This document shows positions 4,404 through 54,769 of a stretch of 64,000 nt of DNA, one piece after another. Numbering within the stretch: position 1 is the first letter of the stretch; every line of letters begins with the position of its first letter. The stretch is from Haliotis asinina. Its lineage: Eukaryota; Mollusca; Gastropoda; Lepetellida; Haliotidae. Position numbers and translations under genes: made by a program. The stretch covers positions 3,465,501 through 3,529,500 of the forward strand of contig NC_090288.1 of NCBI RefSeq assembly GCF_037392515.1, read 5' to 3'. Below the pieces are notes generated by a model. That model was not told the DNA's origin and ran no database searches. It saw nothing but the letters and a program-made list of their open reading frames with translations.

Positions 4404-5025
4404 AAGTCCTCGAAGCACTGACAGTCCGGACAGGCAGAGCCTATTGTGGACATTTGATACCCTTGTACTGTCTTCAAACAAGAAACGCGAAAGCCATTTT
4501 AGAAGAATTTCTAGTGTTTAGTTTTGTTAAGTCCTCGAAGCACTGACAGTCCGGACAGGCAGAGCCTATTGTGGAAATTTGGTCCTCTAGTACAGTCTTC
4601 AAACAAGAAACGCGAAAGCCATTTTAGAAGAATTTCTAGTGTTTAGTTTTGTTAAGTCCTCGAAGCACTGACAGTCCGGACAGGCAGAGCCTATTGTGGA
4701 AATTTGGTCCTCTAGTACAGTCTTCAAACAAAAAAAAGCGAAAGCCATTTTAGAAGAATTTCTAGTGTTTAGTTTTGTTAAGTCCTCGAAGCACTGACAG
4801 TCCGGACAGGCAGAGCCTATTGTGGAAATTTGGTCCTCTAGTACAGTCTTCAAACAAGAAACGCGAAAGCCATTTTAGAAGAATTTCTAGTGTTTAGTTT
4901 TGTTAAGTCCTCGAAGCACTGACAGTCCGGAGAGGCAGAGCCTATTGTGGACAGTTGATACTCTAGTACTGTCTTTAAACAAGAAACGCGAAAGCCATTT
5001 TAGAAGAATTTCTAGTGTTAGTTTA
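4404..5025. repeat. Tandem repeat, five copies of a ~125-bp unit
   Basis: Each unit starts 'aagtcctcgaagcactgaca' and ends 'tttctagtgtttagttttg'. Unit starts fall at 4404, 4529, 4654, 4780 and 4905, giving periods of 125-126 bp. The middle three copies are nearly identical and the outer two differ mainly near 'attgtggacatttgatac'. The open frame on the minus strand (4599-4853) is a by-product of a repeat length divisible by three and is not a gene. Confidence 0.9.
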
Positions 5026-22004: not shown

Positions 22005-23202
22005 CGAGGGGATGTCAATAAGTTTTGAGCTTTGAGCATTTTTCATACCCAGGTGTCACAGCCTATGGTACGACCCCCCTCACGGCAGTGAAAATGAATA
22101 AAATGAGTATAGAGCAGTAATTAGGTTTTTGGTTCTTGAAGGAAACTCGGCGAAGAACATTGAAGAAAGGCTTGCAGCAGTTTATGGGAAGTCTTCCCCT
22201 TCATCTGCTACCATCAAACGATGGGTCAATGAATTTAAGCATGGTAGAGACATTCTTGAAGATGACCCCCGTCCAAGTCGCCCAACAACAATCACCAGTC
22301 AGGAAAACATTGTCAGAATGCATAGACTTGTGCTGGGAAATCGTCGAAACACACTCCACGAGTTAGAGGAGACCACAGGCATTTCACACGGATCCATGGA
22401 GACAATTCTTCATGAACATCTCGTCATGTCTAAGGTGTGCGCAAGATGGGTGCCAAGAATGCTTACAGATGAAATAAAGCAAACAAGGGTCACCATAAGC
22501 AACTCCATGCTAACCAGATACAACAAGAATCAAGAAGATTTTCACTTTAGGCTAGTAACCTGTGATCACTTTGCATCACTATGATCCTATGAGCAAACAA
22601 GAATTCATGGAATGGAAACATGTAACTTCTCCCAGGACCAAAAAGTTCAAAGCCTCCAGAACAGTGCAGAAGGTAATGGCGACAGTCTTCTGGGATAGCA
22701 AAAACGTCATCCACATAGATTACTTACCAAAAGGAAGAACAATGAATGGGGAATATTACGCTAACTTGTTGAGGCAAGTGCGACAGTCAATCAAGGAGAA
22801 GCGCCGGGGCAAGATCAGACGTGGTATTCTTCTACATCAAGACAACGCTCCGTACACACCTCTCGCGTTGCAGCCGCAGCTGTCCAGGAATGCGGGTACG
22901 AAATCTTGCCGCATCCATTCCTACTCTTCAGACCTGGCACCAAGTGATTACCATCTGTTCCCAAGTCTCAAGAAACACTTGCGTGGTCGTAGATTTCAGG
23001 ATGAGAATGAGCTTATTGCTGTTACTGAGGCTGGGTTTGAGGACCAAAATGGCGCCGTCTACAGAGATGGCATCAGCGACTGTCACAAAAGTTGGAACAA
23101 GTGCCTTGACTCACAAGGGGACTATGTTGAAAAATAAATGTGGTTCATACCAATATTTTGTGTTTTTCTATGCAAGGCTCAAAACGTATTGACATCCCCT
23201 CG
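22005..23202 (+). mobile_element. mariner DNA transposon, both ends present
   Basis: The 1198-bp element has 26-bp terminal inverted repeats (22005-22030, starting CGAGGGGATGTC, and 23177-23202) that differ at one base. TA precedes the left end; the right side now reads TG. The transposase (about 22085-23137) has a helix-turn-helix start ('VLEGNSAKNIEERLAAVYG', 'SSATIKRWVNEF'), the first catalytic Asp in 'LVTCD', the second in 'LLHQDNAP' and the third in 'SDLAPSD'. The spacing of 34 residues between the last two gives DD34D, the mariner class. It is damaged but young-looking: the start region is out of frame, a small deletion shifts the frame just after the first catalytic Asp (about 22566-22575), and a pair of compensating shifts scrambles the residues between the second and third Asp. 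Confidence 0.92.
22129..23137 (+). pseudogene. mariner transposase, two overlapping frames
   Basis: Frame 1 (22129-22584) encodes the DNA-binding half up to 'FRLVTCD'. Frame 2 (22562-23137) encodes 'LHHYDPMSKQEF' to the end 'SQGDYVEK'. Neither begins at an ATG: the annotated starts are TTG and GTG, and the expected first residues lie out of frame upstream near 22095-22128. The full family protein is about 340 residues, so nearly the whole gene is here with few lesions. It cannot be made as one protein. Confidence 0.85.
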
Positions 23203-27793: not shown

Positions 27794-28545
27794 TTAGGAA
27801 CTCACACTTGTGTCTCCTACATGGAGAAATGTTCAGGTCAGTGACAATCTTGACACAATATATATTCAGATACAAACGTATTTATCTTTCATCTTGTCTC
27901 ATAATACATACTTCAGTATAGATTGCATTTGTATAATTGGCTCTAACCATTTTCATCTGCAAAAGAGAGCAACACCATGGCCGATCGTCTGTCCATTATC
28001 GTCTCAGCTTCTGATTGGTCAATTGTTCCATCCATGTTTGTATCAAGGCTTTCCACGTCACGTTTGCCTTCAAGGAAAAATAATAATGTTTGAAAGGATA
28101 CACAGTGATAGCAAATCATGCCAGCTGTATACATGGAACATGAACGGTGGGTTTGTTTGTGTTGTTTGTGTTGTTTGTTTCAAGCTGTCGGTTACATGTA
28201 TAGATGAATCTTTAGAATGGAAGATTAATTAATATTCATTATGATCAGGATGTAAGTCTTGATATGACATGAACCATCAAATGTCCATCCTTACATTTCC
28301 ATTACACCATGGCTCCATATGAAACTTTTCAAGCGACATTCTAAGATATACGTTAAAGCAAAATACCCAGCAACATTCCTTTTCACTATGCCAATTTCTA
28401 TGTGTCACTCACCCAACACCGCAATTCCAATTTTTGCTGCTGTGGCAGCTGCTCTAGCAACTCTTCGCCAGCGAACACGTCGCCAGGCAACAGATTCGGA
28501 CACCATCACTGCGGTCACAAGCAGGAGGACAAGGAACAAACGCAT
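27794..28545 (-). CDS. EF-hand protein Y, unit A copy: secreted, three coding exons, last one cut short
   Basis: Minus-strand exons 28545-28413 (start in the exon beginning at 28558), 28067-27948 and 27816-27794 join in phase 1 (donors GTGAGT and GTTAGA, acceptors GAAG and GTAG). Residues 1-20 are a signal peptide (MRLFLVLLLVTAVM...). The next stretch is strongly basic and Trp-rich (WRRVRWRRVAR). EF-hand loop 1 is DTNMDGTIDQSE, a canonical 12-residue Ca2+ loop. EF-hand loop 2 begins DENGDTSVS, with the intron after its Gly4. In this copy TAA (27796-27794) replaces the expected Leu-Glu, so the protein is 91 residues and loses the acidic end of loop 2; unit B reads on for 12 more residues. The 5'UTR exon and TATA box lie 8 kb upstream, across the satellite array. 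Role unknown; secretion and Ca2+ binding are inferred. Confidence 0.7.
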
Positions 28546-28558
28546 TGTGGGTTGTTTT
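28413..28558 (-). other. Y signal-peptide exon, source of the satellite (unit A)
   Basis: The acceptor 'tttatttcag' is followed by 13 bases of 5'UTR (AAAACAACCCACA) and the ATG at 28545-28543. The exon ends with G at 28413 before GTGAGTG. The words 'cag/AAAACA.CCCACA', the ATG and CGTTTGTTCCTTG recur in every unit of the array beginning 60 bp upstream. Confidence 0.85.
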
Positions 28559-28609
28559 CTGAAATAAACACGAATTATCCTCGTACGATTTCAGAATCAT
28601 GTAAACACC

Positions 28610-31600
28610 GAAGGCAATGATATTTCTATCATAAGGTCACCAAGCAAGGAACAAACGCATTGTGGGCTGTTTTCTGAAGTTTTGTTAGCCTGTTACAAAA
28701 CATTGTAAATGATATTTCTATCATAAGGTCACCAAGCAAGGAACAAACGCATTGTGGGCTGTTTTCTGAAGTTTTGTTAGCCTGTTACAAAACATTGTAA
28801 ATGATATTTCTATCATAAGGTCACCAAGCAAGGAACAAACGCATTGTGGGCTGTTTTCTGAAGTTATGTTAGCCTGTTACAAAACATTGTAAATGATATT
28901 TCTATCATAAGGTCACCAAGCAAGGAACAAACGCATTGTGGGCTGTTTTCTGAAGTTTTGTTAGCCTGTTACAAAACATTGTAAATGATATTTCTATCAT
29001 AAGGTCACCAAGCAAGGAACAAACGCATTGTGGGCTGTTTTCTGAAGTTTTGTTAGCCTGTTACAAAACATTGTAAATGATATTTCTATCATAAGGTCAC
29101 CAAGCAAGGAACAAACGCATTGTGGGCTGTTTTCTGAAGTTATGTTAGCCTGTTACAAAACATTGTAAATGATATTTCTATCATAAGGTCACCAAGCAAG
29201 GAACAAACGCATTGTGGGCTGTTTTCTGAAGTTTTGTTAGCCTGTTACAAAACATTGTAAATGATATTTCTATCATAAGGTCACCAAGCAAGGAACAAAC
29301 GCATTGTGGGCTGTTTTCTGAAGTTTTGTTAGCCTGTTACAAAACATTGCAAATGGTATTTCTATCATGATGTCACCAAGCAAGGAACAAACGCATTGTG
29401 GGCTGTTTTCTGAAGTTATGTTAGCCTGTTACAAGACATTGTAAATGATATTTCTATCATAAGGTCACCAAGCAAGGAACAAACGCATTGTGGGCTGTTT
29501 TCTGAAGTTATGTTAGCCTGTTACAAGACATTGTAAATGATATTTCTATCATGATGTCACCAAGCAAGGAACAAACGCATTGTGGGCTGTTTTCTGAAGT
29601 TATGTTAGCCTGTTACAAGACATTGTAAATGATATTTCTATCATGATGTCACCAAGCAAGGAACAAACGCATTGTGGGCTGTTTTCTGAAGTTATGTTAG
29701 CCTGTTACAAGACATTGTAAATGATATTTCTATCATAAGGTCACCAAGCAAGGAACAAACGCATTGTGGGCTGTTTTCTGAAGTTATGTTAGCCTGTTAC
29801 AAGACATTGTAAATGATATTTCTATCATGATGTCACCAAGCAAGGAACAAACGCATTGTGGGCTGTTTTCTGAAGTTATGTTAGCCTGTTACAAGACATT
29901 GTAAATGATATTTCTATCATGATGTCACCGAACAAGGAACAAACGCATTGTGGGCTGTTTTCTGAAGTTATGTTAGCCTGTTACAAGACATTGTAAATGA
30001 TATTTCTATCATGATGTCACCAAGCAAGGAACAAACGCATTGTGGGCTGTTTTCTGAAGTTATGTTAGCCTGTTACAAGACATTGTAAATGATATTTCTA
30101 TCATGATGTCACCAAGCAAGGAACAAACGCATTGTGGGCTGTTTTCTGAAGTTTTGTTAGCCTGTTACAAGACATTGTAAATGATATTTCTATCATAAGG
30201 TCACCAAGCAAGGAACAAACGCATTGTGGGCTGTTTTCTGAAGTTATGTTAGCCTGTTACAAGACATTGTAAATGATATTTCTATCATGATGTCACCGAA
30301 CAAGGAACAAACGCATTGTGGGCTGTTTTCTGAAGTTATGTTAGCCTGTTACAAGACATTGTAAATGATATTTCTATCATGATGTCACCGAACAAGGAAC
30401 AAACGCATTGTGGGCTGTTTTCTGAAGTTATGTTAGCCTGTTACAAGACATTGTAAATGATATTTCTATCATAAGGTCACCAAGCAAGGAACAAACGCAT
30501 TGTGGGCTGTTTTCTGAAGTTATGTTAGCCTGTTACAAAACATTGTAAATGATATTTCTATCATGATGTCACCGAACAAGGAACAAACGCATTGTGGGCT
30601 GTTTTCTGAAGTTATGTTAGCCTGTTACAAGACATTGTAAATGATATTTCTATCATAAGGTCACCAAGCAAGGAACAAACGCATTGTGGGCTGTTTTCTG
30701 AAGTTATGTTAGCCTGTTACAAAACATTGTAAATGATATTTCTATCATGATGTCACCAAGCAAGGAACAAACGCATTGTGGGCTGTTTTCTGAAGTTATG
30801 TTAGCCTGTTACAAGACATTGTAAATGATATTTCTATCATGATGTCACCGAACAAGGAACAAACGCATTGTGGGCTGTTTTCTGAAGTTATGTTAGCCTG
30901 TTACAAGACATTGTAAATGATATTTCTATCATGATGTCACCAAGCAAGGAACAAACGCATTGTGGGCTGTTTTCTGAAGTTATGTTAGCCTGTTACAAGA
31001 CATTGTAAATGATATTTCTATCATGATGTCACCAAGCAAGGAACAAACGCATTGTGGGCTGTTTTCTGAAGTTATGTTAGCCTGTTACAAGACATTGTAA
31101 ATGATATTTCTATCATAAGGTCACCAAGCAAGGAACAAACGCATTGTGGGCTGTTTTCTGAAGTTATGTTAGCCTGTTACAAGACATTGTAAATGATATT
31201 TCTATCATGATGTCACCGAACAAGGAACAAACGCATTGTGGGCTGTTTTCTGAAGTTATGTTAGCCTGTTACAAGACATTGTAAATGATATTTCTATCAT
31301 GATGTCACCAAGCAAGGAACAAACGCATTGTGGGCTGTTTTCTGAAGTTATGTTAGCCTGTTACAAGACATTGTAAATGATATTTCTATCATGATGTCAC
31401 CAAGCAAGGAACAAACGCATTGTGGGCTGTTTTCTGAAGTTATGTTAGCCTGTTACAAGACATTGTAAATGATATTTCTATCATGATGTCACCAAGCAAG
31501 GAACAAACGCATTGTGGGCTGTTTTCTGAAGTTATGTTAGCCTGTTACAAGACATTGTAAATGATATTTCTATCATGATGTCACCGAACAAGGAACAAAC

Positions 31601-34600
31601 GCATTGTGGGCTGTTTTCTGAAGTTATGTTAGCCTGTTACAAAACATTGTAAATGATATTTCTATCATGATGTCACCGAACAAGGAACAAACGCATTGTG
31701 GGCTGTTTTCTGAAGTTATGTTAGCCTGTTACAAGACATTGTAAATGATATTTCTATCATGATGTCACCGAACAAGGAACAAACGCATTGTGGGCTGTTT
31801 TCTGAAGTTATGTTAGCCTGTTACAAGACATTGTAAATGATATTTCTATCATGATGTCACCGAACAAGGAACAAACGCATTGTGGGCTGTTTTCTGAAGT
31901 TATGTTAGCCTGTTACAAGACATTGTAAATGATATTTCTATCATGATGTCACCAAGCAAGGAACAAACGCATTGTGGGCTGTTTTCTGAAGTTATGTTAG
32001 CCTGTTACAAAACATTGTAAATGATATTTCTATCATGATGTCACCGAACAAGGAACAAACGCATTGTGGGCTGTTTTCTGAAGTTATGTTAGCCTGTTAC
32101 AAAACATTGTAAATGATATTTCTATCATGATGTCACCGAACAAGGAACAAACGCATTGTGGGCTGTTTTCTGAAGTTATGTTAGCCTGGTACAAGACATT
32201 GTAAATGATATTTCTATCATGATGTCACCGAACAAGGAACAAACGCATTGTGGGCTGTTTTCTGAAGTTATGTTAGCCTGTTGCAAGACATTGTAAATGA
32301 TATTTCTATCATAAGGTCACCAAGCAAGGAACAAACGCATTGTGGGCTGTTTTCTGAAGTTATGTTAGCCTGGTACAAGACATTGTAAATGATATTTCTA
32401 TCATAAGGTCACCAAGCAAGGAACAAACGCATTGTGGGCTGTTTTCTGAAGTTATGTTAGCCTGTTACAAGACATTGTAAATGATATTTCTATCATGATG
32501 TCACCAAGCAAGGAACAAACGCATTGTGGGCTGTTTTCTGAAGTTATGTTAGCCTGTTACAAGACATTGTAAATGATATTTCTATCATGATGTCACCGAA
32601 CAAGGAACAAACGCATTGTGGGCTGTTTTCTGAAGTTATGTTAGCCTGTTACAAGACATTGTAAATGATATTTCTATCATGATGTCACCGAACAAGGAAC
32701 AAACGCATTGTGGGCTGTTTTCTGAAGTTATGTTAGCCTGTTACAAGACATTGTAAATGATATTTCTATCATGATGTCACCAAGCAAGGAACAAACGCAT
32801 TGTGGGCTGTTTTCTGAAGTTATGTTAGCCTGTTACAAAACATTGTAAATGATATTTCTATCATGATGTCACCAAGCAAGGAACAAACGCATTGTGGGCT
32901 GTTTTCTGAAGTTATGTTAGCCTGTTACAAGACATTGTAAATGATATTTCTATCATGATGTCACCGAACAAGGAACAAACGCATTGTGGGCTGTTTTCTG
33001 AAGTTATGTTAGCCTGTTACAAGACATTGTAAATGATATTTCTATCATGATGTCACCGAACAAGGAACAAACGCATTGTGGGCTGTTTTCTGAAGTTATG
33101 TTAGCCTGTTACAAGACATTGTAAATGATATTTCTATCATGATGTCACCAAGCAAGGAACAAACGCATTGTGGGCTGTTTTCTGAAGTTATGTTAGCCTG
33201 TTACAAGACATTGTAAATGATATTTCTATCATGATGTCACCAAGCAAGGAACAAACGCATTGTGGGCTGTTTTCTGAAGTTATGTTAGCCTGTTACAAGA
33301 CATTGTAAATGATATTTCTATCATAAGGTCACCAAGCAAGGAACAAACGCATTGTGGGCTGTTTTCTGAAGTTATGTTAGCCTGTTACAAGACATTGTAA
33401 ATGATATTTCTATCATGATGTCACCGAACAAGGAACAAACGCATTGTGGGTTGTTTTCTGAAGTTATGTTAGCCTGTTACAAGACATTGTAAATGATATT
33501 TCTATCATGATGTCACCAAGCAAGGAACAAACGCATTGTGGGCTGTTTTCTGAAGTTATGTTAGCCTGTTACAAGACATTGTAAATGATATTTCTATCAT
33601 GATGTCACCGAACAAGGAACAAACGCATTGTGGGCTGTTTTCTGAAGTTATGTTAGCCTGTTACAAGACATTGTAAATGATATTTCTATCATGATGTCAC
33701 CAAGCAAGGAACAAACGCATTGTGGGCTGTTTTCTGAAGTTATGTTAGCCTGTTACAAAACATTGTAAATGATATTTCTATCATGATGTCACCAAGCAAG
33801 GAACAAACGCATTGTGGGCTGTTTTCTGAAGTTATGTTAGCCTGTTACAAGACATTGTAAATGATATTTCTATCATGATGTCACCGAACAAGGAACAAAC
33901 GCATTGTGGGCTGTTTTCTGAAGTTATGTTAGCCTGTTACAAGACATTGTAAATGATATTTCTATCATGATGTCACCGAACAAGGAACAAACGCATTGTG
34001 GGCTGTTTTCTGAAGTTATGTTAGCCTGTTACAAGACATTGTAAATGATATTTCTATCATGATGTCACCAAGCAAGGAACAAACGCATTGTGGGCTGTTT
34101 TCTGAAGTTATGTTAGCCTGTTACAAGACATTGTAAATGATATTTCTATCATGATGTCACCAAGCAAGGAACAAACGCATTGTGGGCTGTTTTCTGAAGT
34201 TATGTTAGCCTGTTACAAGACATTGTAAATGATATTTCTATCATAAGGTCACCAAGCAAGGAACAAACGCATTGTGGGCTGTTTTCTGAAGTTATGTTAG
34301 CCTGTTACAAGACATTGTAAATGATATTTCTATCATGATGTCACCGAACAAGGAACAAACGCATTGTGGGTTGTTTTCTGAAGTTATGTTAGCCTGTTAC
34401 AAGACATTGTAAATGATATTTCTATCATGATGTCACCAAGCAAGGAACAAACGCATTGTGGGCTGTTTTCTGAAGTTATGTTAGCCTGTTACAAGACATT
34501 GTAAATGATATTTCTATCATGATGTCACCAAGCAAGGAACAAACGCATTGTGGGCTGTTTTCTGAAGTTATGTTAGCCTGTTACAAAACATTGTAAATGA

Positions 34601-35837
34601 TATTTCTATCATGATGTCACCAAGCAAGGAACAAACGCATTGTGGGCTGTTTTCTGAAGTTATGTTAGCCTGTTACAAGACATTGTAAATGATGTTTCTA
34701 TCATGATGTCACCAAGAAGGAACAAACGCATTGTGGGCTGTTTTCTGAAGTTATGTTAGCCTGTTACAAGACATTGTAAATGATATTTCTATCATGATGT
34801 CACCAAGCAAGGAACAAACGCATTGTGGGCTGTTTTCTGAAGTTATGTTAGCCTGTTACAAGACATTGTAAATGATATTTCTATCATGATGTCACCGAAC
34901 AAGGAACAAACGCATTGTGGGCTGTTTTCTGAAGTTATGTTAGCCTGTTACAAGACATTGTAAATGATATTTCTATCATGATGTCACCAAGCAAGGAACA
35001 AACGCATTGTGGGCTGTTTTCTGAAGTTATGTTAGCCTGTTACAAGACATTGTAAATGATATTTCTATCATAAGGTCACCAAGCAAGGAACAAACGCATT
35101 GTGGGCTGTTTTCTGAAGTTATGTTAGCCTGTTACAAAACATTGTAAATGATATTTCTATCATGATGTCACCAAGCAAGGAACAAACGCATTGTGGGCTG
35201 TTTTCTGAAGTTATGTTAGCCTGTTACAAAACATTGTAAATGATATTTCTATCATGATGTCACCAAGCAAGGAACAAACGCATTGTGGGCTGTTTTCTGA
35301 AGTTATGTTAGCCTGTTACAAGACATTGTAAATGATATTTCTATCATGATGTCACCAAGCAAGGAACAAACGCATTGTGGGCTGTTTTCTGAAGTTATGT
35401 TAGCCTGTTACAAGACATTGTAAATGATATTTCTATCATAAGGTCACCAAGCAAGGAACAAACGCATTGTGGGCTGTTTTCTGAAGTTATGTTAGCCTGT
35501 TACAAAACATTGTAAATGATATTTCTATCATGATGTCACCGAACAAGGAACAAACGCATTGTGGGCTGTTTTCTGAAGTTATGTTAGCCTGTTACAAAAC
35601 ATTGTAAATGATATTTCTATCATGATGTCACCAAGCAAGGAACAAACGCATTGTGGGCTGTTTTCTGAAGTTATGTTAGCCTGTTACAAGACATTGTAAA
35701 TGATATTTCTATCATGATGTCACCAAGCAAGGAACAAACGCATTGTGGGCTGTTTTCTGAAGTTATGTTAGCCTGTTACAAGACATTGTAAATGATATTT
35801 CTATCATGATGTCACCGAACAAGGAACAAACGCATTT
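28610..35837. repeat. Satellite array, ~78 units of 92 bp, derived from Y exon 1
   Basis: The word gcaaggaacaaacgcattgt first occurs at 28644. Its last counterpart is at 35819, and the distance of 7175 bp equals 78 units of 92 bp minus one base. The one-base deletion is seen at about 34715 ('accaagaagg'). Read on the minus strand, each unit contains an intron-like 'aacttcag', then AAAACAGCCCACA, then ATG CGT TTG TTC CTT, the acceptor, 5'UTR and first five codons of Y exon 1. Two main end variants (caccaagcaagg, caccgaacaagg) and a few others (aagg/gatg, aaaaca/aagaca) are mixed through it. Units near the gene are of the older 'ttttgttag' type. It lies inside the first intron of Y. Confidence 0.97.
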
Positions 35838-36060
35838 GCAGGGTATACTCTGAAGTAAACATTAATAACTCTTGGTCGATTTCAGAATTTTATGAACCCT
35901 GAAGTCAATAATATTTCTATTATAAAGTCACCGAAAAAAGAAACCAACGCATTGTGGAATGAATTATGTAATAAGCATAAATAATCCACGAAAGACTTGG
36001 GGATATCCTAACTACTGAAAATTAGTGAAAACTATGAACTATAAGCATAATACGATGTAC
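35838..36060. repeat. Two diverged ancestral units next to the array
   Basis: 'acgcatttgcagggtatact' (about 35829-35850) and 'aacgcattgtggaatgaatt' (about 35945-35965) begin two longer, diverged units of about 110-115 bp, with 'tcagaatttt' and 'aataatatttct.t.ataaagtcaccg' in common with Y exon 1's upstream sequence. The same two units occur in unit B at about 50085-50260. Confidence 0.8.
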
Positions 36061-36450: not shown

Positions 36451-36506
36451 CAGAAGAAGACAAATCAAGACACAGTAGCTATGATGGGACAATCCTTGTA
36501 TTTATA
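36451..36506 (-). promoter_or_regulatory. TATA box and 5'UTR exon of Y, unit A
   Basis: On the minus strand TATAAATA spans 36506-36499. About 22-30 bases later comes a short stretch ending 'tttgtcttcttctg' at 36451, followed by a consensus donor GTGAGTAA. A transcript starting near 36477 would have a leader exon of about 27 nt spliced to the acceptor at 28559, with an intron of about 7.9 kb holding the satellite. The arrangement is conserved in unit B. Confidence 0.65.
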
Positions 36507-38557: not shown

Positions 38558-40233
38558 TTACTCGTCTTCAGTCGCAGCAGCGGTATCTAAACAGCAAAGA
38601 GTGAGTTAGTTAGATTTCTTTTGACGCCGTTTTCAGTGAGTGGGTGAGTTTATTCTTTGAAAGAGTTATCTCCCCTTTTATCAAACTGCATTGGCATCAG
38701 TTGCGCTGCAGTGCTGCTAGAGTGGGGTGCCGCCTCACTTTCATTTCAATATTATCAGTCATATATTAGGGCGGCGGTATAACCTAGAAGCTGAAGCGCA
38801 TTAATAAGATAAAACTGTTTTCCAGTTGGTTCAAATATTCCAAGGCACCAAATATGAAAAGATGATACCTACCTGCCATCATACTTGAGAGGCTGCTATT
38901 GAAATCTTCGAAGGTCACCTTCGAATTTCCTGTGAATAACATCACATCGTCAGTACACTGTGGGGTAAAGAGAGGGTTCGCAGGTCACGCCGAACTCTTT
39001 GGTTCGATTCAAAATAGGGAAAAATGTGTAAGGACATTTTCTTGTGTCACGCGCAGTAATTATGCTGGAATATTACTAAAACGGCGTAAAAAGGTATTCA
39101 CTCATCAGGTATAATGAACGTAGACTTATATAATTTTGCACTTGTATGATGGGGCTATGTGAGTTAAGTGTTCGCTCGTCACGCCGAACACCTGGGTCCG
39201 ACTCCCCACCATGAGTACAATGTGTAAAGCACATTTCTTGAGTCCCCTGTGATTCTTTCGCTTGAATGTTGCTGAAAGCGACGTAAAACTACACTCTGTG
39301 TGGTTGTATCAAAACATGGGCACTTTTGTCAGACCATGTTTATGTTTGATCTTTTTCAGCTGTTGTATACTACCCAGAATAAAGTGTCTGTGGTGCATTT
39401 TAATTGTGCATTTTTGAAATATTATCAGTCGTTTACATGTGTTGTAGGCCACCCACCCACTCGCTCACTCGAACAGGGATTTGCTTTCAAGAATCCGTTT
39501 TTCAAGAACAATTGTGTCATAAAATGATATTTACGACCGTTTCTTAAGGTTCACTGAGAGCATTTTGAAATCTGAAAACTGTTAATTAATGTTCAGATAT
39601 TTGTAAGAGTATTCGTGTTTATTTGTTGGTGTTTCTCATCTCTTAACCAGCAAGACAGTGGGTGGGTGGAGGAAAACAACTTAGAATATAAAGAAATCAT
39701 TTTCACTAATTTTGTATGAACATTCTGACTTATGTAATAAAATTAGATTGGCTTCACAAACATATTGTTTTCATATTTAGATGATGAAAAACCATGTTTA
39801 CCAGGGTGTTATATGGCAGAGCACGGATTTGTATTATTACACCATGGCATAACTGTCCACAACGGTAGGAGAAATTGAGATAAGAAAACGTTTTCATTTT
39901 CACGTCGGAATGAAAATTCATGACGGAAAGGAGGTGGAATACGATACATACCCACTAATGTATGTAACTGATTAAATACAGACCACACGTGTTAAAGGAA
40001 AACAGGGGTTTAAAATATAAGAAAAAATGTTGGATTCGAAACCCAGCTCACTGGATTAAAATTACAAACACGCACACAATGTAAAATCCTCTTACCATTT
40101 TTCTTCGCACGAGAGAGTACTTCCTCGGCAAAGCGCGCGCCAATAACCTTTGCTGCCTCTGCCTGGTCGATGGCACCATCGTTATTTTCATCCAGGTCCC
40201 TGACGTAACGTCCATACCAACCAAATCCACCTC
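38558..40233 (-). CDS. EF-hand protein X, unit A copy (three 3' exons, first exon not found)
   Basis: Minus-strand exons 40233-40096, 38929-38873 and 38586-38558 join in phase 1 (acceptors TCTAG, CACAG, TTTAG; donors GTAAGA and GTAGGT), ending at TAA 38560-38558, and give about 74 residues. The first starts with a Gly/aromatic stretch (GGFGWYGRYV) and has a canonical EF-hand loop DENNDGAIDQAE. The next completes a degenerate second loop (KKNGNSKVTFED, with Lys at position 1 and Ser at 6). The tail is DTAAATEDE. The intron in loop 2 falls at the same Gly as in Y, so X and Y are paralogs. A start/signal exon must lie upstream, beyond the duplicated unit or at another gene's exon 1. Ca2+ binding is likely through loop 1 only. 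Role unknown. Confidence 0.75.
38940..39300 (+). repeat. Two tandem SINE B copies
   Basis: First copy about 38945-39115 ('gggttcgcaggtcacgccgaac', 'tatgctggaatattactaaa'). Second about 39145-39300 ('taagtgttcgctcgtcacgcc', 'cacctgggtccgactcccc', 'gcgacgtaaaac'). Both are in unit B at 53165-53345 and 53390-53545. Confidence 0.7.
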
Positions 40234-49184: not shown

Positions 49185-49867
49185 TCATTCTTGGAGGTGG
49201 TGGATGCTCCTTGCGAACTCTTCCAAACTCACACTTGTATCTCCTACATGGAGAAATGTTCAGGTCAGTAACAATCTTGACACAAATTATATTCAGATAC
49301 AAAGGTATTCATCTTTCATCTTGTCTCATAATACATACCTCAGTATAGATTGCATTTGTATAATTGGCTCTAACCATTTTCATCTGCAAAAGAGAGCAAC
49401 ACCATCAATTGTTCCATCCATGTTTCTATCTAGGCTTTCCACGTCACGTTTGCCTTCAAGGAAAAGTAATAATGTTTGAAAGGATACACAGTGATAGAAA
49501 ATCATTTTGGCTATATAAGGAACATGAACGGTGAGTTTGTTTGTGTTGTTTGTTTGTTTCTTTCTTTCAAGCTGTCGGTTACATGTTAGGAATGTAACGG
49601 CGGCCGTAGATGAAATCTTCAGAACTGACGATTAATTAATATTCATATTGATCAGGATATAAGTCTTGATATGAAATGAACCTTCAAATGTTCACAGAGT
49701 CACCATTACATTTCCATTACACCGTTGGACTCACCCAACACCGCAATTCCATTTTACGCTGCTGTGGCAGCTGCTCTGGCAACTCTTCGCCATCGAACAC
49801 GTCGCCAGGCAGCAGATTCGGACACCATCACTGTGGTCACAAGCAGGAGGACAAGGAACAAACGCAT
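49185..49867 (-). pseudogene. EF-hand protein Y, unit B copy, broken
   Basis: Minus-strand exons 49867-49735 (exon starts 49879), 49453-49375 and 49243-49185 keep the splice sites and phase of unit A. Exon 1 has an in-frame TAA after 'ARAAATAA' in place of Lys-Ile. Exon 2 lacks 41 bp, which removes most of EF loop 1 after DGTI and shifts the frame. Exon 3 is whole and gives the family's proper C-terminus: DTSVSLEEFARSIHHLQE and TGA at 49187-49185. With an intact exon 2 the family protein would be 103 residues. Replacements Ala/Thr and Val/Ala in the signal region also separate it from unit A. Confidence 0.85.
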
Positions 49868-50260
49868 TTGGGTTGTATTCTGAAATAAACACGAATTATC
49901 CTCGCATGATTTCAGAATCATGTAAACACCGAAGGCAATAATACTTCTTTAATAAAGTCACCAAGCAAGGAACAACGCATTGTGGGCTGTATTCCGAAGT
50001 AAACATGAATAATATATGTTAGCTTGTTACAAGACATTGTAAATGATATTTCTATCATAAAGTCACCCAACAAGGAACAAACGCATTTGCAGGGTATACT
50101 CTGAAGTAAACATTAATAACTCTTGGTCGATTTCAGAATTTTGTAAACACTGAAGTCAATAATATTTCTGTCATAAAGTCACCGAAAAAAAAGAAACCAG
50201 CGCATTGTGGAATGAATTCTGTAATAAGCATAAATGATCCACGAATGACTTAGGAATATC
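49868..50260. repeat. Four diverged ancestral units of the satellite
   Basis: The exon 1 unit (49856 on), 'aacgcattgtgggctgtatt' (about 49976), 'acgcatttgcagggtatact' (about 50082) and 'gcgcattgtggaatgaattc' (about 50202) are spaced about 105-120 bp. Only the second has the 'tgttagcttgttacaagacattgtaa' text that forms the 92-bp unit in A, so that unit is the amplified one. Confidence 0.85.
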
Positions 50261-52754: not shown

Positions 52755-54769
52755 TTACTCGTCTTCAGTTGCAGCAGCGGTATCTAAACAGCAAAGAGTG
52801 AGTTAGTTAGATTTCTTTTGACGCCGTTTTCAGTGAGTGAGTTTATTCTTTGAAAGAGTTATCTCCCCTTATATCAAACTGCATTAGCATCAGTTGCGCT
52901 GCAGTGCTGCTAGAGCGGGGTGCCGCCTCACTTTCATTTCAATATTATCAGTAATATGTTAGGGCGGCGGTATAACCTAGAGGCTGAAGCGCATTAATAA
53001 GATAAAACTGTTTTCCAGATTTTTCTTCGAACGTATAGTTTGGTTCAAATATTCCAAGGCACCGGATGATCGGTTCCAAAAATGAAAAGATGATACCTAC
53101 CTGCCATCATACTTGAGAGGCTGCTACTGAAATCTTCGAAGGTCACCTTCGAATTTCCTGTGAATAACATCACATCGTCAGTACACTGTGGGAAGACCCA
53201 GTGGGTAAAGGGAGGGTTCGCAGGTCACGCCGAACTCTTTGGTTCGATTCAAAATAGGGGAAAATGTGTAAGGACAATTTCTTGTGTCACGTGCAGTAAT
53301 TATGCTGGAATATTACTAAAAACGGCGAAAAAAAAGGTATTCTCATCAAGTATAATGAACGTAGACTTATATAGTTTTGCACTTGTGTGATGGGGCTATG
53401 TGAGTTAAATGTTCGCTCGTCAGGCCGAACACCTGGGTCCGACTCCCCACTATGAGTACAATGTGTAAAGCACATTTCTTGTGTCCCCCGTGATTATTTC
53501 GCTTGAATGTTGCTGAAAGCGACGTAAAACTACACTCTGTGTGGTTGTATCAAAACATGGGTACTTTTGTCAGACCATGTTTATGTTTGATCTTTTTCAG
53601 CTGTTGTATACTACCCAGAGTAAAGTGTCTATGGTGCATTTTAATTGTGCATTTTTGAAATATTATGAGTCGTTTACATGTGTTGTAGGCATTTGTGTGT
53701 TGACATATCGTAAACCAATAGAAAATATATCAACAAAAAACGCCAAATACAATCTTGATATGTCCCATCTAGCAGCCAAAATAATTTGTGTTGTGAAAAG
53801 GTCTCCACAGTTTTCTTTTGAAAACATTAAATCGAAATTATATTATGTTAGTTGACACCGAAGTCCCAGGTTCGATTCCCCACATACTTAATGTGTGAAG
53901 CCATTTCTGATGTCCTCCACATTGAATATTACTGGAATATTGCTAAAAGTGGCGTAAAACCTCACTCACTCACTCAACCCACCCACCCACTCGCTCACTT
54001 GAACAGGGATTTGCTTTCAAGAATCCGTTTTTCAAGAACAATTGTGTCATAAAATGATATTTTACGACCGTTTCTTAAGGTTCACTGAGAGCATTTTGAA
54101 ATCTGAAAACTGTTAATTAATGTTCAGATATTTGTAAGAGTATTCGTGTTTATTTGTTGGTGTTTCTCATCCCTAATCTTAACCAGCAAGACAGTGGGTG
54201 GGTGGAGGAAAACAACTTAAAATATAAAGAAATCATTTTCACTTATTTTGTATGAACATTCTGACTTATGTAATAAAATTAGATTGGCTTCACAAACATA
54301 TTGTTTTCATATTTAGATGATGAAAAACCATGTTTACCAGGGTGTTATATGGCAGAGCACGGATTTGTATTATTACACCATGGCATAACTGTCCACAGCG
54401 GTAGGAAAAATTGAGATGAGAAAACGTTTTCATTTTTACGTCGAAATGAAAATTCATGACGGAAAGGAGGTGGAATACGATACATACCCACTAATGTATG
54501 TAACTGATTTAATACAGACCACACGTGTTAAAGGAAAACATGGGTTTGAAATATAAGAAAAAATGTAGGATTCGAATCCCAGATCACTGGATTCCAATTG
54601 CAAACACGCACACAATGTAAATTCCTCTTACCATTTTTCTTCGCACGAGAGAGTACTTCCTCGGCAAAGCGCGCGCCAATAACCTTTGCTGCCTCTGCCT
54701 GGTCGATGGCACCATCGTTATTTTCATCCAGGTCCCTGACGTAACGTCCATACCAACCAAATCCACCTC
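52755..54769 (-). CDS. EF-hand protein X, unit B copy (three 3' exons)
   Basis: Minus-strand exons 54769-54632, 53157-53101 and 52783-52755 with the same splice sites and phase as unit A. The 138-bp EF-hand exon is identical to unit A base for base, while the flanking intron differs at several positions. The second exon has one replacement (Asn to Ser in the FEDFNSS region) and the last exon one silent change. No stop or frame lesion is seen. As in unit A, the first exon is not within the duplicated unit; it would lie above 54769, where a broken DIRS-like element now begins at about 55640. Confidence 0.75.
53165..53545 (+). repeat. Two tandem SINE B copies, unit B
   Basis: Counterparts of 38940-39300 with small differences ('gggaagacccagtgggtaaag' is fuller here). 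Confidence 0.7.
53690..53980 (+). repeat. ~290-bp insertion in unit B ending in SINE B
   Basis: Unit A passes from 'gttgtaggc' directly to 'cacccacccactcg'. Unit B has extra sequence ending in a SINE B 3' half ('ggttcgattccccaca', 'agtggcgtaaaacc', 'cactcactcactcaac'). Confidence 0.7.

Follow-up and report, generated by a model that had tools for sequence, protein, structure and literature searches.

The predicted first intron of the gene Y1 contains a tandem array of 78 full 92-bp units, each of which repeats, in the orientation of the gene, the edge of Y1 exon 1: a splice acceptor, a 13-nt piece of the 5′UTR, and the ATG with the first five codons. We regard it as probable (about 0.78) that this array is a case of exon stuttering outside the vertebrates, in which an ancestral tandem was followed by the amplification of one copy in Y1, with neutral growth and with decoy signals that stay silent. 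The window, i.e. the whole stretch of DNA analysed, comprises 64 kb and sits on contig C9 (3465501-3529500) of a 1.143-Gb genome in 159 contigs.

The host gene and its array

The following features of Y1 were used for the analysis:

27943..28067, minus strand: Y1 exon 2, with the rest of the GKR site, an EF-hand-like acidic C-terminal part and the stop codon TAG
28413..28558, minus strand: Y1 exon 1 (length 146), with the end of the 5′UTR, the signal peptide and a cationic peptide; ATG at 28545
28616..35836, minus strand: 92-bp tandem array with 78 full units, from TRF and unit analysis
36451..36470, minus strand: end of a predicted non-coding leader exon of putative extent, with the donor CTG/GTGAGT after 36451, downstream of a TATAAATA box

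A GTGAGT donor directly follows exon 1 after 28413. The GKR in the precursor is taken by us to be a signal for amidation and dibasic cleavage, and for this reason the Y1 product is likely to be a small antimicrobial peptide precursor in the manner of the mytimycins. The Y1 translations contain no cysteine. Against the Pfam EF-hand_5 profile exon 2 scored 16.1 bits, which is below the cut-off of 25.9.

The TATA box together with the GTGAGT donor at 36451 suggests a non-coding leader exon. Over 93 bp, this stretch and its counterpart in the paralog Y2 show 97.8% conservation, and a similar TATA-GTGAGT layout was found ahead of the first coding exon of a relative, L042. As the leader exon rests on the conserved TATA box and donor, "intron 1" of Y1 is a predicted intron as well. 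The original prediction had placed the array between leader exon and exon 1: its location upstream of exon 1 in cis holds, while the leader exon keeps the rank of a prediction.

TRF run on the window returned a period of 92 with 78.5 copies and 97% matches at 28616-35836, within a few bases of the limits previously given (28610 and 35837). Cutting the array at AAGGAACAA gave 79 starts from 28646 to 35821, which reproduces the previously counted span of 7175 bp. Of the 78 full intervals between them 77 measure 92 bp and the remaining one 91 bp; the 79th start (35821) belongs to an older diverged copy outside the array proper. The units fall into 14 sequence types with 11 variable columns, and the GC content of the array is 36.7%. 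The acceptor context and the start context are present in all 78 full units (78/78), as had been claimed for every unit.

The edge that array and exon have in common comprises positions 28531-28563, i.e. 28 exon bases (13 of 5′UTR and 15 coding) and 5 intron bases, and differs from the array consensus by 1 mismatch in 33 positions. In the rest of the window a substitution-only search allowing up to 3 mismatches found no further copy of this edge; the copies in Y2 are too diverged for this search. The remainder of the 92-bp unit is intron sequence, which can also be aligned to the upstream flank of exon 1 itself. A chance resemblance between unit and exon was ruled out by the alignment and by the hit-criterion test described next.

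Exon stuttering has been defined by a blastn-short match of an exon in the adjacent intron of at least 20 nt with a bit score above 42.1 (PMC12954441). When Y1 exon 1 was compared with intron 1 we obtained 78 hits with a maximum of 60.0 bits, spanning exon positions 1-30, and no hit in one shuffled intron. In Y2 there was a single hit of 40.1 bits, which lies below the threshold of 42.1. The copies are confined to one intron: neither exon 1 nor exon 2, both of which are open in Y1, matches intron 2 on the same strand.

A whole-genome DNA search with the array unit gave matches only at this site and in the paralogous Y2 intron 21 kb away, where the counts are lower bounds. The expectation that the unit would not match an unrelated dispersed satellite thus stood up to the search. 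An origin from a dispersed repeat is unsupported, since genome searches with two queries, the array unit and a piece made of copy c and part of d (see below), matched only the two Y introns, again with counts as lower bounds. The many loci or chromosomal blocks of a genomic satellite were likewise not seen in the genome search, within the same lower bounds. We take a single-locus array of 92-bp units to be, in the usual terms, an intronic minisatellite, such that the earlier label "satellite" has to be replaced. A second tandem array occurs elsewhere in the window at 4404-5024 (125 bp x 5.0 copies, or 251 x 2.5, with 95% matches). At 22102-23137 there are open frames in two frames, which by eye look to us like a mariner-type transposase.

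Relatives of Y1 and the age of the exon

The search with exon 1 gave 9 further matches on the same contig besides Y1 and Y2. Matches to the EF-hand exon were found on this and other contigs, 44 in total at E up to 1. Among the related EF-hand peptide genes there are clusters, partly in tandem and with arginine-rich peptides (L011-L019 and L021-L035, at C9:1.05-1.20 Mb and 2.80 Mb). On C4 and C17 a 39-bp tandem repeat of 18.4 copies lies close to matches of the EF-hand exon (L038 658-1379 and L039 1742-2463). Equal length and score at opposite orientation suggest that these two repeats are two copies of one locus.

The coding start ATGCGTYTGTTCCT is present in all nine family genes at C9:1.05-1.15 Mb, and L042 has the peptide start MRLF in common with them. 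Copies of the exon edge upstream were seen in 0 of the 9 genes over 1.5 kb (in two of them over 5.1 and 5.3 kb), stretches that the introns of these relatives may exceed, their nine leader exons not having been located. In L042 there was no stuttering across its 484-bp intron, and the exon-stuttering criterion gave no hits in the examined stretches of the nine relatives and L042. Because the relatives possess the coding start without an upstream exon-edge copy in the stretches examined, the exon appears to be older than the array. The reverse order, in which a repeat came first and then supplied the gene with its acceptor and start codon, would fit the difference upstream of the ATG, where the 5′UTR has 13 nt in Y and 1 nt in the relatives, with acceptors assigned from the sequence. 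Since ATGCGTYTGTTCCT is common to nine relatives that show no such repeat in the stretches examined and L042 shares MRLF, this order was already disfavoured and we consider it extremely improbable.

A four-copy tandem preserved in the paralog

The window carries a duplicated block that contains Y1-X1 and Y2-X2. X1 and X2 are further EF-hand-like exons on the minus strand at 40094-40210 and 54630-54746; tblastn found no first exons of the X genes. Y2 is broken by a stop in exon 1 and by a 41-nt loss in exon 2, as counted from the sequences. Its predicted intron 1 has a length of 844 bp vs 7892 bp in Y1. Comparison of the two introns revealed the following units:

49735..49879, minus strand: exon 1 of the paralog Y2, with an in-frame TAA
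49853..50264, minus strand: Y2 units a, b, c and d, an unexpanded tandem with a single b of 105 bp
28531..28645, minus strand: Y1 unit a, exon-1 edge plus upstream intron, outermost unit of the ancestral tandem; far 30 bp array-like; 93% identical to Y2 a
35821..35933, minus strand: Y1 unit c of the ancestral tandem, acceptor and ATG kept; 96% identical to Y2 c
35934..36013, minus strand: Y1 unit d, most diverged ancestral copy; 92% identical to Y2 d

The order a-b-c-d is identical in Y1 and Y2, and every piece is nearest to its counterpart; the array unit is 88% identical to Y2 b. While the counterparts of Y1 and Y2 are 92-96% identical, the divergence among a, b and c amounts to 19-29%. Judged from this sequence comparison, the four-copy boundary tandem predates the Y1/Y2 duplication. 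Both flanks of the array run on into sequence that is colinear with Y2, and the array lacks 14 bp that are present in Y2 b. In Y1 it was an internal, already diverged b copy lacking these 14 bp that was amplified to 78 copies.

The tandem paralog preserves the four-copy stage and so allows the events to be put in order. Before Y1 and Y2 separated, a piece of about 105-115 bp spanning the junction of intron 1 with exon 1 was tandemly copied, which left the exon edge and three boundary copies, as the comparison shows. After duplication of the Y-X block an internal copy of Y1, having lost 14 bp including a pyrimidine-rich stretch, gave rise to the 78 copies, as the alignment shows. The original prediction had derived the unit from Y exon 1. 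This stands for the acceptor, the 5′UTR and the first five codons, which lie in cis upstream of the exon, but the unit did not come straight from the exon of today, as the a-b-c-d tandem is older.

Growth of the array

The mean pairwise difference between the units is 2.6% (2926 pairs from the 77 units of 92 bp). Mismatches in the Y1/Y2 flanks amount to 57/874, 79/2053, 65/1643 and 18/241 aligned bases. As the units differ less than these flanks, the expansion looks younger than the gene duplication, with homogenisation also lowering the differences between units.

Within the array a block of 10 units is tandemly duplicated, with an exact match of 1009 bp at an offset of 920 bp. When the order of the units was shuffled, 0 of 2000 shuffles reached a 10-unit repeat, the maximum being 7. 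From such multi-unit duplications we infer that the array grew by unequal exchange or a similar local duplication process. The array length is taken from one assembly, and an exact repeat of 1009 bp is a site where assemblers can duplicate or collapse sequence. That a shorter array was inflated or mis-joined in this way is nevertheless very unlikely: 159 contigs for 1.14 Gb suggest long reads, the 14 unit types follow each other without simple periodicity, and the flanks are colinear with Y2 on both sides.

In addition to its array-like far 30 bp, Y1 unit a carries an array-like 5′UTR base where Y2 differs, which suggests an exchange between array and exon edge, at few sites. Unusual folding as a driver of the expansion is unsupported, as the unit had z = -0.67 and 51 of 200 shuffled sequences folded with equal or greater stability.

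Splice signals of the copies

Splice sites were scored with vertebrate-like matrices, i.e. values that were not trained on molluscs, and with an acceptor score that does not weigh the AG itself. On this scale the real acceptor of Y1 exon 1 reached 0.5, the 91st percentile of 3005 AGs on the same strand with the array excluded. The array acceptor scored -5.1, the 55th percentile of the same set, and thus resembles an average AG. Candidate donors after the ATG of the unit reached -0.9 to 0.2, whereas the donors of exon 1 and the leader scored 5.2 and 7.2, respectively. Copy c has an acceptor that scores as the real one, at full strength in both Y1 and Y2, while Y2 b has GG at the position of the AG. 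It was therefore not necessary for every copy to be disabled in the same way. The presence of copy c, with full acceptor and ATG, suggests that the gene can tolerate one live decoy, perhaps because this copy lacks a donor.

The 14-bp deletion took out a pyrimidine-rich stretch. On its own it lowers the Y2 b context from 2.2 to -5.5 in a score that ignores the GG ending of b. Such a deletion has 105 placements, of which 89 were scorable, and 4 of these reached -5.1 or lower. The loss of the pyrimidine tract could be luck, since 4 of 89 scored placements do likewise and the test was chosen post hoc. That the amplified copy is a disabled one supports a filter by splicing but, with one event and a test chosen afterwards, fails to establish it.

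Judged by these scores, the decoy acceptors and start codons in the array are probably silent. They would stay so because they possess neither a pyrimidine tract nor a good downstream donor, and splicing would go to the sole copy that still continues into a complete exon followed by GTGAGT as donor.

One may alternatively ask whether the array is functional, with its copy number tuning the expression of the peptide gene, either as regulatory sites or as 33-nt micro-exons that add upstream starts. All 78 units keep both contexts, but homogenisation preserves identical motifs without selection. If a CGAAC-type unit were included by splicing, the reading frame would be lengthened without a shift of phase, with MRLFLVRKQPT preceding the normal start, and inclusion of a CAAGC-type unit would yield MRLFLA followed by a stop; the weak unit donors and the average acceptor argue against such splicing, and 33 nt is very short for exon definition. 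Y1 is open with the array and Y2 broken without it. Variable columns are slightly rarer in the exon edge (1 of 33) than in the rest of the unit (10 of 59), a difference that is not significant (Fisher p = 0.09) and provides a weak hint of constraint. The folding of the unit is unremarkable. We therefore consider a functional array unlikely and neutral growth in intron length the most likely state of this sequence, with amplification by unequal exchange or a similar local process as the probable route.

Comparison with known systems

In mussel mytimycin an EF-hand part follows a dibasic site (PMC8004829). The host gene resembles it in the peptide, the dibasic site, an acidic C-terminal part that in Y1 is EF-hand-like with a Pfam score below the cut-off, and the non-coding first exon, which is predicted in Y1 (PMC8004829). 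Mytimycins are cysteine-rich, whereas the Y1 precursor is without cysteine (PMC8004829).

Large introns are also found in Y-linked genes of Drosophila, where the repeats are genomic satellites and the introns reach up to megabases. In Y1, as in these gigantic satellite-containing introns, a gene that appears to be functional has an intron lengthened by repeats (PMC6508621, PMC11207136). Unlike the Drosophila satellites, the unit in Y1 is local and comes from the gene itself.

The closest counterpart is found in birds. The original prediction had regarded such an array as not known to be described, but the kind of event is already described, as "sequence stuttering" or "exon stuttering" in chicken in 2026, where 236 introns of 115 genes carry copies of the adjacent exon edge (PMC12954441). 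There, exon parts of 20-187 bp (median 36) are present in 1-44 copies, length variation between individuals is marked, and 190 of the 236 introns reside on dot chromosomes, from which a link to GC content was suggested (PMC12954441). The authors of that study report that the phenomenon was not found in other vertebrates except in gerbil genes, with data not shown (PMC12954441). Among open-licence papers we found no other use of either term and saw no exon-derived array from abalone or other molluscs.

It can be proposed, tentatively at best, that animal genomes in general are subject to exon stuttering, beyond the GC-rich dot chromosomes of birds, and that a boundary copy is free to expand only after its acceptor has been disabled; we hold this wider reading to be rather doubtful. 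If it is true, splicing itself would filter which boundary copies become arrays. In any case Y1 makes a question testable, namely how a gene can tolerate that its acceptor and start codon are repeated dozens of times ahead of the genuine pair.

Y1 shares with avian exon stuttering that an exon edge with its splice site is copied into the neighbouring intron in local tandem clusters, that the exon is intact, that a paralog is without the expansion, and that the exon part is short, about 30 here (PMC12954441). The avian cases lie mostly on GC-rich dot chromosomes and consist of imperfect repeats, whereas Y1 has 78 near-identical units that include a start codon, at a GC content of 37% (PMC12954441). 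The array lacks the association with GC-rich DNA, which in birds is a correlate rather than a requirement of exon stuttering (PMC12954441). The bird phenomenon is thereby extended to an AT-rich, presumably molluscan genome. Compared with what is given in that source, the new aspects of Y1 are a non-vertebrate host (presumably a mollusc), AT-rich DNA, a copy number above the maximum of 44, the inclusion of the start codon, and a paralog that is preserved at an earlier state.
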